Below, in pieces: positions 7,411 through 17,057 of a stretch of 64,000 bases of DNA; within the stretch, counting starts at the first letter, position 1; each line of letters starts with the position of its first letter. The notes under the pieces are model-generated. The model searched no databases and was not told the origin of the DNA. It saw only the letters and a list, made by a program, of their open reading frames with translations. The position numbers and the translations under genes are program-made. Source of the stretch: Acidimicrobiaceae bacterium (GTDB taxonomy: Bacteria > Actinomycetota > Acidimicrobiia > Acidimicrobiales > RAAP-2); assembly GCA_003164095.1 (NCBI GenBank), contig PLRX01000141.1, forward strand, positions 1 to 64,000, given 5' to 3'.

Positions 7411-7683
7411 GAGGAAGTCCTTTCTCGCATTGCTTCTTAGTTAGTTAATTGAAATTTCTAGTGATGGTAGTAAGGGCTGTGGATTGTGGACATACCGCAA
7501 TCCTCCCTGGTCGGAGTGCATGTGGATTTCCACCTCGCGTCCCCCGAACCGACCTCGGAGCTCCCGTCGGATGTCCGTGAGGTGTCGTGTTATGGACAAG
7601 TTCACGGGAGTTCACAGAATTACCCCAGTTGCACCCAGTGATATCCACAGGATGGGCACAAGCTCTGGACGAGTGAAGTGCGA
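7411..7683. other. oriC: Putative oriC (dnaA-dnaN intergenic region)
   Basis: A 273-bp gap between the two leftward genes dnaA and dnaN, the standard actinobacterial origin location. Bases 7430-7475 are strikingly AT-rich for this genome and could be the unwinding element. DnaA-box-like 9-mers, compared with TTGTCCACA/TTATCCACA, are 7485-7493 (ATGTCCACA on the minus strand, one mismatch), 7591-7599 (TTGTCCATA on the minus strand, one mismatch), 7641-7649 (ATATCCACA, one mismatch), and weaker ones at 7478-7486 and 7521-7529. The dnaN promoter must also lie here. The assignment rests on position plus boxes; strand asymmetry was not calculated. Confidence 0.72.
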
Positions 7684-9066
7684 TCATGAACCGCTCTTGA
7701 TGCGGACGATGAGGTCGGTCACCTGGTTGTAGATCTGCTGCCGTTCCTTCATCAACCCGGCGATCTTCTCGACTGCGTGCATGACCGTCGAGTGGTCACG
7801 CCCTCCGAACTCCCTGCCGATGGCCGGGTAGCTGAAGTCGGTCAGCTCGCGGAAGACGTACATACTGACCTGGCGGGCGGTCACGAGGGGACGACGCCGG
7901 TTGGGCCCGCACAGCTCCTCGACGGAGAACCCGAACGTCTCCGAGGTCGCGTCGAGGATCACCTGGGGTGTGATGCGGCGGGGCTGGTCGGCCGACACGA
8001 TGTCGGACAGGACCACCTCGGCCAACTCCCGGCTCATGGGCTGGTGATTGAGGCTCGCGAACGCGGTGACCCGGATGAGTGCACCTTCCAGTTCGCGGAT
8101 GTTCTCCTTGACGTGGGTGGCGATGAACTCGAGTACGTCGTCGGGGACCGCCACACGCTCATGCTCGGCCTTGGTCTGGAGGATGGCCAGTCTCGTCTCG
8201 AGTTCCGGTGGTTGGACCTCGGTGATGAGCCCGGAGAGGAAGCGGCTCCGGAGCCGGTCCTCCAGGGTGGCGATCGATTTGGGCGGGCGGTCGGAGGTCA
8301 GCACAATCTGCTTCGACGCCCCATAGAGGGAGTTGAAGGTGTGGAAGAACTCCTCCTGCAGCGACTCCTTCCGCTCCATGAACTGCACGTCGTCGATCAG
8401 GAGGACATCACACTCCCGGTACCGCCGTTTGAAGGCCGTGGTCGAGCTGTGACGGATGGCGTCCACGAACTCGTTCATGTAGGTCTCGGTGGTGACGTAG
8501 CGGACGTTCCGACCACTGAAGTTCTCCAGGACGTAATTCCCGATGGCGTGCAGCAGGTGGGTCTTGCCGAGCCCGGCGTCGCCGTAGATGAACAGGGGGT
8601 TGTAGGACCGTGCCGGCGATTCGGCCACGGACTGGGCAGCGGCATGTGCGAATCGATTGGAGGAGGCGATGACGAAGGTCTCGAACGTGTAGCGGGGGTC
8701 GAGCAGCTGCGACGCTGCGGGGTCGCTGACCCCGGTCACCCTCGCAGGAGCGGCCGGCGCGGGGCGGTCGTCATCGACCTGAGCGAGGGAGGCGGCCACG
8801 GCGTCGTGTTGCTCGGAGGGCGCGACGACTTCGAGGTGCACGATGAGGTCTCGCCCGAGCGTGCCGGTGACCGTGTCCTGGATCAGGCCGAGGAAGCGTG
8901 ACTCGACCCGGTCACGGATCAACTTATTGGGGACGCCGAGGACGATCTCGTCGTCAGCGATGGACACAGGGGTGATCCCGGACAGGTAGGCCTGCCAGAT
9001 GGCATCCGACACCTGCTCGCGAAGGGCGTCTGCGCACGATGTCCACAAGTCTTCGGTGTCGTTCAC
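7684..9066 (-). CDS. dnaA: Chromosomal replication initiator DnaA
   Basis: DnaA (460 aa from this start), the AAA+ initiator that binds DnaA boxes and opens oriC. Domain I is at about residues 1-85, followed by a short linker, then the AAA+ domain with Walker [10 protein letters not shown] at 162-170 and Walker [10 protein letters not shown] near 225. The C-terminal DNA-binding signature is [16 protein letters not shown]. The frame is open to a GTG at 9114, but I prefer the GTG at 9066: GGAGG lies 5 nt upstream, and the choice leaves the DnaA-box cluster at 9095-9126 outside the gene as a promoter/autoregulatory site. It diverges from rpmH. Confidence 0.96.
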
Positions 9067-9417
9067 ATGGGCCTCCGCCCTTTGACTGCGCAATTGGTCC
9101 ACAAAGATATCCACAGCTGTGGACGAGCACCACCCGGCTGTGCCGGTCCCCGAGCACGACGGGAAGCGGTCACTGCCTATTCACTCGGATCTGTTGTTCG
9201 TACTCCGGCCGGGGCAGGATCCCGGCCGACGCGTCCGGTAGCGTTCCCCGGGGTCGGAACGGTACACCGTGCCCGCCGATGGTGCCTCCGGGCTCCGACT
9301 AGAGACCCGGGCGCGTTTCGGCCTAGCATGTACGTCGAATGCCCAGTCCCGAGTGACGGGGCCCCCTGCCGAACGGGACACAAGTCCGCGGTCCAGGGCG
9401 AGGAAGGAAGTGGATGG
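9067..9417. promoter_or_regulatory. dnaA/rpmH divergent promoter region with DnaA boxes
   Basis: A 351-bp gene-free stretch between the divergent dnaA and rpmH genes. Three DnaA-box-like 9-mers cluster at 9095-9103 (TGGTCCACA), 9107-9115 (ATATCCACA) and 9118-9126 (TCGTCCACA on the minus strand), each one mismatch from actinobacterial consensus forms. A further box-like ATGTCCACA lies inside dnaA at 9039-9047. This layout suggests DnaA autoregulation, or an additional origin-proximal DnaA-binding site. The remainder (9130-9417) should hold the rpmH promoter; I could not fix a convincing -35/-10 pair. Confidence 0.6.
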
Positions 9418-12482: not shown

Positions 12483-13163
12483 ATGGATGACGGACCTGGT
12501 GAGAGCGATTGGCTGGAGAAACTGCGGCGCCGGGTGGATCCAGGGCTTGTTCCGGCTCTCGAGCGTTCGTTCGAGCTCGGGTTCCTCGGAAGTATGCCTA
12601 TAGGTGACCAGATCGAACACGCCCTTGGGTTCGTCGCCATACTCGAGACCGAGCTCGGCGGACCGCCCGACAGCGTCATAGACCTCGGGACAGGCGGGGG
12701 AGTTCCAGGTCTGGTTCTGGTGGCGTGTTGGCCGACCTCCCATGTAGTCCTGATGGACGCCAGTGAGCGGCGGACTGAGTTCCTGGAAGGTGTCCTCGAC
12801 GATTGGCCCCGGGAACACCGGGCCGAGGTCGTCCGGGGCCGCGCCGAGGAACTGGGCCGGGAAACGGAACTGCGGGAGGCGTTTATGGCCGTCACATCGC
12901 GTTCGTTCGGATTGCCGGCCGCCACAGCTGAATGTGGATCATCCTTCCTTGCCGTGGCTGGTCTGATGGTCGTGTCGGAGCCCCCGGAGACCTCTCGTGC
13001 CGCACGCTGGCCGGCGGACGGCCTGACCGCGCTGGGGCTTGTCCCGGTGGATGCCGTACGGCCCGGCGAGCGCTTCGGCTACCAGGTGCTCCGTAAAGTC
13101 GGGTCTCTCGATGATCGGTTTCCGCGCCGGGTCGGCGTTCCGGTGAAGCGCCCCCTCTTCTGA
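12483..13163 (+). CDS. rsmG: 16S rRNA (guanine527-N7)-methyltransferase RsmG
   Basis: RsmG (GidB), a SAM-dependent methyltransferase (226 aa) that modifies G527 of 16S rRNA in the 530 loop; loss of it gives low-level streptomycin resistance in several bacteria. The SAM-binding loop is VIDLGTGGGVPGLVL (about 64-78), followed by VVLMDASERRTEFL, and the later motif AVTSRSFGLPAAT is present. The ATG at 12483 has GGAGG about 12 nt upstream. Position between jag and parA matches the actinobacterial origin order. Confidence 0.93.
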   Translation: MDDGPGESDWLEKLRRRVDPGLVPALERSFELGFLGSMPIGDQIEHALGFVAILETELGGPPDSVIDLGTGGGVPGLVLVACWPTSHVVLMDASERRTEFLEGVLDDWPREHRAEVVRGRAEELGRETELREAFMAVTSRSFGLPAATAECGSSFLAVAGLMVVSEPPETSRAARWPADGLTALGLVPVDAVRPGERFGYQVLRKVGSLDDRFPRRVGVPVKRPLF

Positions 13164-13204
13164 GCGCCCCTTTCTTGGGGAGGTACAGGGTATGCGACCC
13201 CTAA

Positions 13205-13220
13205 TGTTTCACGTGGAACA
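13205..13220. promoter_or_regulatory. parS: parS centromere site 1
   Basis: The 16-mer TGTTTCACGTGGAACA; its reverse complement is TGTTCCACGTGAAACA, identical to the canonical bacterial parS. It is the nucleation site for ParB clamp loading. It lies 41 bp downstream of the rsmG stop. Confidence 0.95.
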
Positions 13221-14650
13221 TGAGGACCTCATGACCAGGAGTATCCGGGTCATCGTGCGCCTCCGGACTCCCCCACCAAACCTGGGCCTTAGCAGGCGCT
13301 CGTCTCTGAACTGCCGGCGTGCCAGGAACAGACCGGGCCTTCGGCGGCCAGGGCGGGTTGATGTCAGCCAGTCGACACTGCACGCCGACCATCGGCACCC
13401 CTCCCTGCTGGGGATGCCGACGCGGAGTCATGGCCCACCGGTTACGGCACCGCCTTCGTGCCCACTCCCCCACTGGTGAGCACCAGCGCCTCGAGATGTC
13501 CGCACGATGACCACCCGGCGCTGCCCCCTGGGTGGTGGCTGGCCGCCGGATCATTCGGTCGAGTACGACCGTCGGCTTCCGACGGGTCTGCCGCTTCGAA
13601 CCGGCAAGCCAACCGTCCGTCCGGATCGGGGCCGTCGGCACCTCGACGGGAAGTAGATCGACAGGTGGTGGATCTCTGGTGACGGCAGCTCGGAATCCGC
13701 CCCTGGCTCACTGGGCCGGACCCGTAAGGAGATCCTGGACACGATCGGCATGGATGTGAAGTGGAAGCTAGAGCCAACCGGGGTGGCGGTTCCTTCCGCC
13801 TTCGACCCCGGAGGGCGAGCTCGCCTTGTTCGGACTCCTCGCTCCTGGAGATTCATCGGCACCCGCATCCGCATGGATTCGAGACCGCTCCGGTGGGACA
13901 CTCCGGATCGATCGTTCAGTCCGATCGTCTGACATGACCTCGGGAGACCATCGCTCGCCGGCCGAGATCCATTCGCACGCGGCACGATCCGGAGCCAGCC
14001 GTTGTGAAGGACCATCTGCCGGATGAGTCTGTCCAGTCGGTGTCCGGAGGTGGGGGAGTGGTAGGCCGCACCCTAAGGAGGCGTCGGCTCATGATCGAAC
14101 CGTTCATTGGGTCGAACAGGTGGCGTCTCCGACCAGGGTCGCACGGAGGCTCGCTCGGCGGCCCGGCGCCCCGGAAGGCCGACGTTCCGGCCGGCCCGGC
14201 TCAATTCGCGGGCTGCGTGCGTCGCGCCGGGCTGCTGGCGCTCCTCGGAGCGGGTCGCGCTTCGTTGTCAACGATCCTCTGCTCACTTCGGGGAGGACCG
14301 GACCTGCGCCACTCTGGAAGGGGCGAGGACCTGGCCCACGGGAGCTCAGAGCCCTCGATCTGCATGTCGTGCGTCTCTGGCATACGGCGGAACTTCGGCG
14401 CGACCCGGCGGCTGACTACAAGGGCGCACCAGCAGCCGAAGTGGGAGTCGGAGCAACCACATCCCTGTCGGGATCACATCAGCCGCCCCCGTTCCCTGGG
14501 CGCTGTCGGATCTCAGGTGGGGATCGCCCCGGAGCCCGTGTGGCCGAAGTCCCCTCCTGACGGGGTTGGTCGAGACGGGAGAGTCACGGGGTTCGGAGGC
14601 TGTGGGTGCCGGTGAGCTTCCGGTCGAACGTCTGTGCCGTCAAACTCTCA

Positions 14651-14666
14651 TGTTTCACGTGAAACA
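14651..14666. promoter_or_regulatory. parS: parS centromere site 2
   Basis: Perfectly palindromic 16-mer TGTTTCACGTGAAACA, matching the parS consensus. It lies 77 bp upstream of the preferred parA start, so ParB bound here could also affect parA transcription. The two parS sites are about 1.45 kb apart. Confidence 0.96.
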
Positions 14667-14743
14667 TTGGCAGAATGCTTGACCTGGCGATCGGGGCAGG
14701 CGAGTATGAAGCCCTTGCACCCTGCCTACTCGAGGAGACGATA

Positions 14744-16072
14744 ATGCGCGGCCGACGTCGTGGTCGGAACAGGCCATCCCCTCCGAGTCCCCCCTCATCT
14801 GGTGCCACCCAGGCCGCAGATTCAGGAGGTCAAGGGGCTATCCAAGTCCTCGACTCGTCGCAGACGGTAGACCCTGCTGAGGACGGCCTCCCTGACGTCT
14901 CGGACGACAGCACGGCCAGCGGAGAAGCGAACGTCGCGTCGGTCGGAGAAGCCTCGTCATCCTCTGACGGGGGAGGTGGGGCCGCCGCAGAGCCACAACC
15001 TGCGGCGGAGGGCGCCTCAACCACGGGCGGATCATCACCTGCTCCGGCGTCCGATCTGGTCGAGGAGACTGGGACGAATGCACCAACGGTGGCCGATGAA
15101 GCCGGGCCGCCGCCGGTCAGGACTCCGATGCAAGACGCCCCGGACGAGCCGACCCAGGACTCGTCGATCGAGTCGGTGTCAGACGCGTCGGCGGACGCCC
15201 CAGTTTCGGCTTCGACCGAGGAGACTACGGTGTCTGATGCACCCGCAACGGATGACAATGTCGTGGCACCCACCGGTCGGCAGCCCCAGGCCGCCTCCGG
15301 CAACCCCCTCCCGAGAGTGATGGCCGTGGCGAACCAGAAGGGCGGGGTCGGCAAGACCACGACCTCGGTCAATCTGGGTGCCGCTCTGGCCGAGCTCGGA
15401 TTCCGGGTCCTGGTGATCGACCTCGATCCCCAGGGGAATGCCACCACAGGCCTGGGTATCGATGCCCGGAACTTCGAGCTGTCCATGTACGACGTCCTCA
15501 TGCGGGACTCGTCGCTGGAGGACTGCGTCGAGCCGACGAGTATGAAGAACTTGTTTGTGGCCCCGGCGACCATCGCCCTGGCAGGTGCCGAAATCGAGCT
15601 CGTGCCGGCATTCAGCCGGGAGCTGAAGCTCAAGCGTGCCATCGAGACCGTCATCGACGACTTCGATTTCGTCCTTATCGACTGCCCCCCGTCTCTCGGC
15701 CTCATCACGGTGAATGCCCTGGCCGCCGCGGACGAGGTCCTGGTTCCCATCCAGTGTGAGTACTACGCGCTCGAAGGTCTCAGTCAACTGATGCGCAACG
15801 TCCATCTGGTGGCGTCCAATCTCAACCCGAGGCTGGACATCTCGACGATCGTGCTCACGATGTACGACGCCCGGACGAAGCTTTCCGACCAAGTGGCGAC
15901 AGAGGTTCGTGACCACTTCGGGAACAAGGTCTGTCGGATCGTGATCCCCCGGACTGTGCGTCTCTCGGAGGCGCCGTCATTCGGCCAGCCGATCACAGCG
16001 TTCGACCCCGCATCCCGCGGGGCCATTGCCTACAGGGAACTAGCCAAGGAGGTCAGCGGTGGCACGTCGTAG
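14744..16072 (+). CDS. parA: Chromosome partitioning ATPase ParA
   Basis: ParA (Soj-like) ATPase, 442 aa, which binds DNA non-specifically in its ATP form and moves ParB-parS complexes. The deviant Walker A KGGVGKTT lies at residues 199-206, followed by VLVIDLDPQGNATTGLG and VLIDCPPSLGLITVNAL. The core is normal, but about 190 residues precede it: a basic start (MRGRRRGRNR) and a long acidic Ser/Ala/Pro/Asp-rich disordered stretch. The ATG at 14744 has GAGGAGA 5 nt upstream, which supports the extension. An internal ATG near 15320 would give a standard-length protein and cannot be excluded. The end overlaps parB by 14 nt. Confidence 0.94.
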   Translation: MRGRRRGRNRPSPPSPPSSGATQAADSGGQGAIQVLDSSQTVDPAEDGLPDVSDDSTASGEANVASVGEASSSSDGGGGAAAEPQPAAEGASTTGGSSPAPASDLVEETGTNAPTVADEAGPPPVRTPMQDAPDEPTQDSSIESVSDASADAPVSASTEETTVSDAPATDDNVVAPTGRQPQAASGNPLPRVMAVANQKGGVGKTTTSVNLGAALAELGFRVLVIDLDPQGNATTGLGIDARNFELSMYDVLMRDSSLEDCVEPTSMKNLFVAPATIALAGAEIELVPAFSRELKLKRAIETVIDDFDFVLIDCPPSLGLITVNALAAADEVLVPIQCEYYALEGLSQLMRNVHLVASNLNPRLDISTIVLTMYDARTKLSDQVATEVRDHFGNKVCRIVIPRTVRLSEAPSFGQPITAFDPASRGAIAYRELAKEVSGGTS

Positions 16073-17057
16073 CGGTCTGGGGAAGGGCCTGAGCGCCCTC
16101 ATCCCCACCGAAGTCACGGGCGATCGCACCTCTGCGCTCCGTGAGGTCCCCATCGGCAACATCAAGCCGAACCCCCGCCAACCGCGCGTGAACTTCGATG
16201 AGGAGACGATGGCGTCGCTCGCCGCGTCGATCAAGGAGCTCGGAGTGCTCCAACCGGTACTGGTCCGTCGCATCGGTGGTGAGGCCTCGGACGAGTTCGA
16301 ACTCATTGCCGGCGAACGTCGGTGGCGTGCCTCGCGTCGCGCCGGACTGCACACCATTCCGGTGCTCATCCAGACGTCGAACGACACCCACAGTCTCGAG
16401 CAGGCACTGGTCGAGAATCTTCATCGCCAGGACCTCAACGTCCTCGAAGAGGCTGCGGCCTACCAACAGCTCATCGAGGAGTTCGGATTCACCCACGATC
16501 AGGTTGCCACCCGGGTCGGTAAGAGCCGTACGGCGGTGACCAACATCCTCCGACTACTGCAACTGCCGTCCGGCGTGCAGCGACTCCTAGCTGAGGGGCA
16601 GATCAGTCCCGGCCATGCGCGGGCCCTGCTGGGTACCCCCGACCGGGGTTACCAGGAAGTGCTGGCCCGCCAGTCGGTCTCCGACGGTCTCACGGTCCGG
16701 GCCATCGAAGAGTTGGTCAGGGTCCACAATGACGAGGCCAACGGCGTGGTCCGTGACATCGGGACGATCGGCGGCGGCACTCAGGGCCCTGTCGGCGTCG
16801 GCGGGCAGGGCGGACCCGCCCCGGTGCCGTCCGTGCGCGGGATCGAGTCCTCATCGGGGGGAGGGGCCGGCCCTCGCCAGCTGCCCCCACCAGGAATCCT
16901 CGAGCTCGAGGAGCTCCTGTCCAGCCACCTCAACACCCGGGTGAAGGTTGACATGACAGCAAAGCGCGGCAAGGTGGTCGTGGAGTTCGCCACGCTGGAG
17001 GACCTGGAGCGGATCTACAAGCTCATGGTGGGCGGTGTGGAGACATCTGCAGTGTGA
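16059..17057 (+). CDS. parB: Chromosome partitioning protein ParB
   Basis: ParB (332 aa), a CTP-dependent DNA clamp that loads at parS and recruits ParA and SMC. It starts with the typical basic ARRSGLGKGLSALIP segment, then the CTPase box GERRWRASRRAGL, the ENLHRQDLNVLEEA region and an HTH (VATRVGKSRTAVTNILRLLQLP). A Gly/Pro-rich linker leads to the C-terminal dimerisation domain. The GTG at 16059 overlaps the parA end and follows AAGGAGG, so the pair is translationally coupled. Two parS sites lie upstream of parA. Confidence 0.96.
   Translation: MARRSGLGKGLSALIPTEVTGDRTSALREVPIGNIKPNPRQPRVNFDEETMASLAASIKELGVLQPVLVRRIGGEASDEFELIAGERRWRASRRAGLHTIPVLIQTSNDTHSLEQALVENLHRQDLNVLEEAAAYQQLIEEFGFTHDQVATRVGKSRTAVTNILRLLQLPSGVQRLLAEGQISPGHARALLGTPDRGYQEVLARQSVSDGLTVRAIEELVRVHNDEANGVVRDIGTIGGGTQGPVGVGGQGGPAPVPSVRGIESSSGGGAGPRQLPPPGILELEELLSSHLNTRVKVDMTAKRGKVVVEFATLEDLERIYKLMVGGVETSAV

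Follow-up and report, generated by a model that had tools for sequence, protein, structure and literature searches.

The window, i.e. the complete stretch of 64,000 nucleotides that was analysed (contig PLRX01000141.1 of assembly GCA_003164095.1, Acidimicrobiaceae bacterium), contains gyrA, gyrB, recF, dnaN and dnaA on the minus strand, followed by yidC, jag, rsmG, a gap, parA and parB on the plus strand. Gene names other than rsmG, jag, parA and parB were assigned by reading the translations. For rsmG (gidB; 12483-13163, plus strand) a match to Pfam PF02527 was obtained (E 2.3e-16). Among named genomes searched with RsmG, the single hit was in a distant relative, Candidatus Microthrix (L102, 39% identity). 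Its stop at 13163 and the parA ATG at 14744 are separated by 1,580 bp. The product of parA (14744-16072, plus strand) is a ParA-type ATPase (Pfam AAA_31, E 1.2e-66) with the deviant Walker A motif KGGVGKTT in the translation. In the product of parB (16059-17057, plus strand) the N-terminal CTPase-type, the HTH and the C-terminal dimerisation domain were all matched (ParB_N, HTH_ParB, ParB_C), and the CTP-type motif GERRWRA is visible in the translation. With the parS sites described below, the full set of a chromosomal ParABS system of the Soj/Spo0J type is present, and parS is restricted to the locus above chance. ParA begins with an N-terminal extension of about 190 aa (14744-15316, plus strand; strong period-3), which consists of a conserved basic MRGRRRGR and a long, acidic, S/T/P-rich linker of low complexity. 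In relatives the MRGRRR start is kept and the linker is variable. The extension was found in most members of the genus and in some neighbouring genera; it is shorter and different in G032 and G033. One in-frame TAA lies within the ParA frame of G022 (G022:C2:514920-515666, L147).

The sequence-only reading had described the interval between rsmG and parA as a 1.58-kb gap without a supportable gene, and all tests of coding potential agree with this. A codon model was trained on 331 kb of this genome, and it gave no open reading frame of the gap a score above zero; period-3 power was at the level of shuffled sequence. Open frames reach 203 aa, which is unremarkable at 67% G+C. No known protein or RNA family was detected either: six-frame translations gave no Pfam match at E<=1, and the Rfam search returned nothing even at E<=1. 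A scan of the gap for canonical promoters and terminators was likewise without match. In the 331 kb sampled, the longest run that lacks coding signal (2,730 bp, 12631-15360) contains the gap; as this run also takes in low-scoring portions of rsmG and parA, just its central ~1.58 kb is truly gene-free. A first gene-finder pass had overlooked rsmG and recF, and its list of gaps was replaced by a sliding six-frame score.

Both edges of the gap carry a parS site, 5.5-7 kb from the dnaA-dnaN gap and thus near the par genes and the origin. The rsmG-side site parS1, GTTTCACGTGGAAC (13206-13219), starts 42 bp past rsmG and has one mismatch to the consensus; the parA-side site parS2, GTTTCACGTGAAAC (14652-14665), lies 78 bp ahead of parA and is a perfect palindrome. 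Of the two consensus sites read at these edges, both are therefore present, but only parS2 is exact. The two sites are also the two copies of the longest repeat of the gap (21 nt, 90% alike). In all, 61 whole genomes were scanned for the parS pattern GTTYCACGTGRAAC. As the whole 3.72-Mb genome of the window holds just three consensus sites, two of them at the rsmG-parA gap, their pairing at this place is not due to chance. In 52 genomes (window and relatives) the locus is contained in a single contig. Of their 106 consensus sites, 102 were located inside the rsmG-parA interval; hence, judged by sequence, this interval is very probably the chromosomal parS locus. Members of the genus usually have exactly two sites.

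Some parS sites deviate in position or sequence. The third consensus site of the window genome (G000:C117:57847-57860, L123) is located away from the par locus, and a consensus site of G012 (G012:C8:6388-6401, L124) has the immediate flank TGTGACTTGTTTCACGTGGAACT in common with it. In both cases, nearby open reading frames look like a NUDIX-type regulator and rlmN (judged from the translation only). G016 (L061) and G035 (L077) have no GTTYCACGTGRAAC sites; each contains two GTTACACGTGRAAC sites, only in the rsmG-parA interval, which may represent a possible shift of the parS consensus. In G014 and G026, GTTTCACGTGGTAC or similar sequences were found as parS-like sites.

parS2 lies inside a conserved block (14647-14743) that is 75-87% identical across the genus. 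It is followed after 13-16 bp by a parA leader found genus-wide, which consists of TTGACC (TTGACG in one case), about 17 bp, GAGTATGA or a close variant, an SD-like element and the MRGRRR start. In the window, the putative parA promoter (14679-14709, plus strand) comprises TTGACC (14679-14684), 17 bp and GAGTATGA (14702-14709), and the SD-like GAGGAG ahead of the parA ATG is at 14732-14737. A canonical sigma-70 promoter scan did not call this promoter. TTGAC was found within 45 bp after the last parS in 25 of 40 genomes, compared to 5.8% of random stretches of the same intervals, and after the first parS in none of 29 expanded genomes. Genomes of the distant families often lack the promoter motif downstream of their last parS. 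Since the conserved TTGACC-GAGTATGA leader follows parS2 and not parS1, parS2 is assigned, on sequence grounds, to the parA promoter region. Autoregulation of parAB by ParB through parS2 would follow naturally; for mycobacteria, control of gidB and parA by ParB has been proposed, too (PMC2346475).

The distance between the two sites differs widely among relatives. Within the window's genus (nine contiguous genomes) the span from the first to the last parS is 163-1446 bp, an about 9-fold variation. It is 26-77 bp in 11 relatives that belong to several families and reaches 3.5 kb in others, so that the order as a whole ranges from 26 to 3538 bp. Sister species have similar spans (1446/1353 and 970/1038 bp). 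For three more genus members, whose contigs break in the gap, lower bounds of about 1.7, 2.6 and 2.0 kb were obtained if the pieces belong together. Assemblies often break within the rsmG-parA gap (G002, G004, G011, G017 and others), perhaps due to length or strain variability. The flanking parts are steadier: parS1 is less than 200 bp past the rsmG stop in 37 of the 40 genomes with at least two sites, and the adjoining jag-rsmG gap measures 51-245 bp in the genus. Length change thus falls mainly between the two parS sites, and the anatomy of the interval, as deduced from these positions, is modular. In a tree of RsmG and ParA compact and expanded forms are interspersed, and the window's clade is uniformly expanded. 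For a sample of the phylum (n=103) the median distance from the end of the GidB domain to the ParA core was 266 bp, with more than 1 kb in 3 of 103; in the window, the distance from the rsmG end to the ParA core alone is 2,157 bp. A recent insertion, which had been considered for the gap, is unlikely, as every genus member with an intact locus has a spacer, with a parS span of at least 163 bp.

Between the sites, the 1,432-bp gene-free spacer (13220-14651) shows no period-3, positive open reading frame, Pfam or Rfam match, or meaningful similarity to relatives, plasmids or phages. When the window was compared to its relatives by BLAST, only parS2 with the parA leader and the coding region matched. 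Sharing of k-mers between the genus spacers corresponded to the Markov expectation, i.e. to chance. Neither length nor sequence of the spacer was found to be conserved in the genus. Half-parS, DnaA and other short motifs also occurred at chance level in these spacers, without enrichment of half-parS. Alignments of sister-species spacers were not clearly above shuffles. Fourfold sites are near saturation; hence, a failed alignment shows only the absence of a strongly sequence-constrained element and cannot separate neutrality from selection on length only. The window's spacer has no match elsewhere in its own genome, nucleotide searches gave no plasmid or phage match, and searches for remnants of mobile elements in it were negative. 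Eight contiguous genomes of the genus had spacers of testable length, and in none of them did period-3 exceed that of shuffles. Coding remnants or signals were detected in spacers of some other genera and possibly in G004.

In the distant relative G040 a fragment of an IS110 transposase lies between the two parS sites. Furthermore, the intervals of G014, G016, G026 and G035 (L059, L061, L068, L077), four genomes with diverged parS, share a short coding-like block, LIGLLIGEGHFGGDGRQPQVTLRMH..., with the motif LIGLLIGEG, which is inverted in G026 compared to the other three. The block is reminiscent of a LAGLIDADG endonuclease but had no Pfam match, and an IS5-like identity of a fragment in G036 was not confirmed. 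The IS110 fragment and the shared block indicate that the place between the modules accepts additional DNA.

We consider it probable that the locus is an ordinary ParABS centromere and autoregulatory locus, in which the paired parS sites were pushed apart by dispensable DNA. Site positions, confinement of parS, modular anatomy and the lack of coding and of conservation were computed directly; from these we infer ParB binding, autoregulation, coating and dispensability of the spacer as follows. ParB, probably a CTP-dependent sliding clamp, would load at parS1 and parS2. As parS2 would sit within the parA promoter, bound ParB could repress parAB. The 1.43-kb spacer would be dispensable DNA, gathered where an insertion spares the rsmG end with parS1 as well as parS2 with the parA promoter; it would tolerate large shifts in length, and its sequence would drift freely. 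Because clamps would slide off both sites, the spacer is probably coated by ParB and transcriptionally quiet, as a consequence rather than as a demonstrated function. In the simplest reading extra DNA is tolerated at one place, between the modules, and the clade retains such DNA. Non-coding DNA in bacteria is usually lost through deletion. The persistent span of at least 163 bp and the similar lengths in sister species speak against mere filler, and selection on spacing could be involved. The missing mobile remnant in the window's spacer and the promoter motif often missing in distant families also count against the preferred explanation.

The source of the spacer may be a decayed gene or mobile element that was inserted between ancestrally adjacent parS sites. 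This origin, which is compatible with dispensable DNA between the sites, is a tentative but serious candidate: the compact pairs of 26-77 bp in 11 relatives of several families, the IS110 fragment of G040 and the LIGLLIGEG block in the intervals of G014, G016, G026 and G035 point to it, but the window's spacer has no protein similarity in any frame and no nucleotide match to plasmids, phages or its own genome. The proposal that the gap is the remains of a lost gene found no direct support in the window; the one transposase remnant belongs to a more distant relative. As source, a gene or mobile element that has decayed completely is possible. A non-coding RNA or small protein in the interval is very improbable, though a species-specific RNA is conceivable. 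The open frames of up to 203 aa could be taken in its favour but are unremarkable at this G+C content, and positive open reading frames, period-3 and Rfam matches at E<=1 are lacking. Fold z-scores are centred on 0 (mean 0.01 over 50 segments), and their minimum of -2.75 is reached in the segment with the parS2 palindrome. Besides parS2 and the parA leader no block is conserved in the genus, and the earlier suggestion of a non-coding RNA locus is unsupported. Even less credible is the interval as replication origin, although the dnaA-dnaN gap is 5.5-7 kb away. DnaA boxes with at most one mismatch are absent from the interval; such DnaA-box-like sites occur at 7485-7641 and 9039-9118. The dnaN-dnaA intergenic region (7411-7683), with three one-mismatch sites (7485, 7591, 7641), is the oriC candidate, by inference from these sites and the gene order.

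Alternatively, the spacer could be a selected zone for ParB loading and bridging, in which transcription-free DNA lets clamps accumulate, bridge and escape eviction by RNA polymerase, so that length and not sequence is selected. Consistent with this, every one of the nine contiguous genomes of the genus has a spacer, and so have neighbouring genera that carry exactly two sites; the location of the window's interval in the longest run sampled that lacks coding signal and the unexpanded jag-rsmG gap fit as well. Published ParB spread was asymmetric around parS and possibly affected by transcription (PMC5815017). However, the roughly 9-fold length range in the genus, and 26-3538 bp in the order, imply that no particular length is required, and spacers of some relatives contain coding remnants or signals. 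ParB elsewhere spreads over at least 10 kb across genes (PMC7083940; PMC5815017). In Corynebacterium glutamicum ParB reaches as far as 16 kb on both sides of one parS, peaking within 2 kb (PMC7083940), and for Caulobacter ParB in E. coli the spread around a single site is about 2 kb (PMC5815017). Given such spreading, the 1.43-kb spacer would be covered by ParB whether gene-free or not, so that a dedicated zone is possible but not needed. Such a selected zone is thus doubtful. A bipartite centromere of the clade, with two parS sites and a gene-free spacer kept by selection and filled or bridged by ParB, so that its existence and approximate length are functional, appears unlikely. Of the earlier idea of a centromere or ParB-spreading zone, the centromere is well supported, with nearly all consensus parS located there, but the dedicated zone is not borne out, the spacer being unconserved and of about 9-fold variable length.

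The contrast to mycobacteria drawn in the sequence-only reading could be confirmed, as gidB and parA overlap there and both parS are located elsewhere (PMC2346475). Mycobacterium bovis BCG and M. smegmatis have two parS at a distance of 0.77-0.86 kb; one of them lies in parA, the other in gidB or upstream of it (PMC2346475). The order jag-gidB-parA-parB near the origin, the number of two parS and their position at promoters are shared with the locus described here, but the mycobacterial sites are separated by coding DNA, whereas both sites are intergenic here and bracket a gene-free spacer (PMC2346475). C. glutamicum also has an actinobacterial ParB-parS centromere on the origin side with mostly intergenic sites; it differs by ten parS in 35 kb, 73 kb from oriC (PMC7083940). 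In Caulobacter crescentus few sites within 5 kb near the origin act as centromere, too, but there are at least five, located in essential or fitness-relevant genes, and no such gene-free spacer is described in the excerpts of that study (PMC5815017). In a limited literature search, covering parts of the sources, no other case was found in which consensus parS is confined to one intergenic gap and two sites flank a gene-free spacer that lacks conservation.

The ParABS system itself is ordinary. The two-site layout is real, since relatives share it with very different spacer lengths, and the spacer may be neutral filler. Essentially every consensus parS in this bacterial order is confined to one intergenic gap. 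The clade provides a natural series of two-parS centromeres with spacers from 26 bp to 3.5 kb in the same gene neighbourhood, which makes the role of the distance between ParB loading sites and of intervening transcription in segregation testable by comparison.
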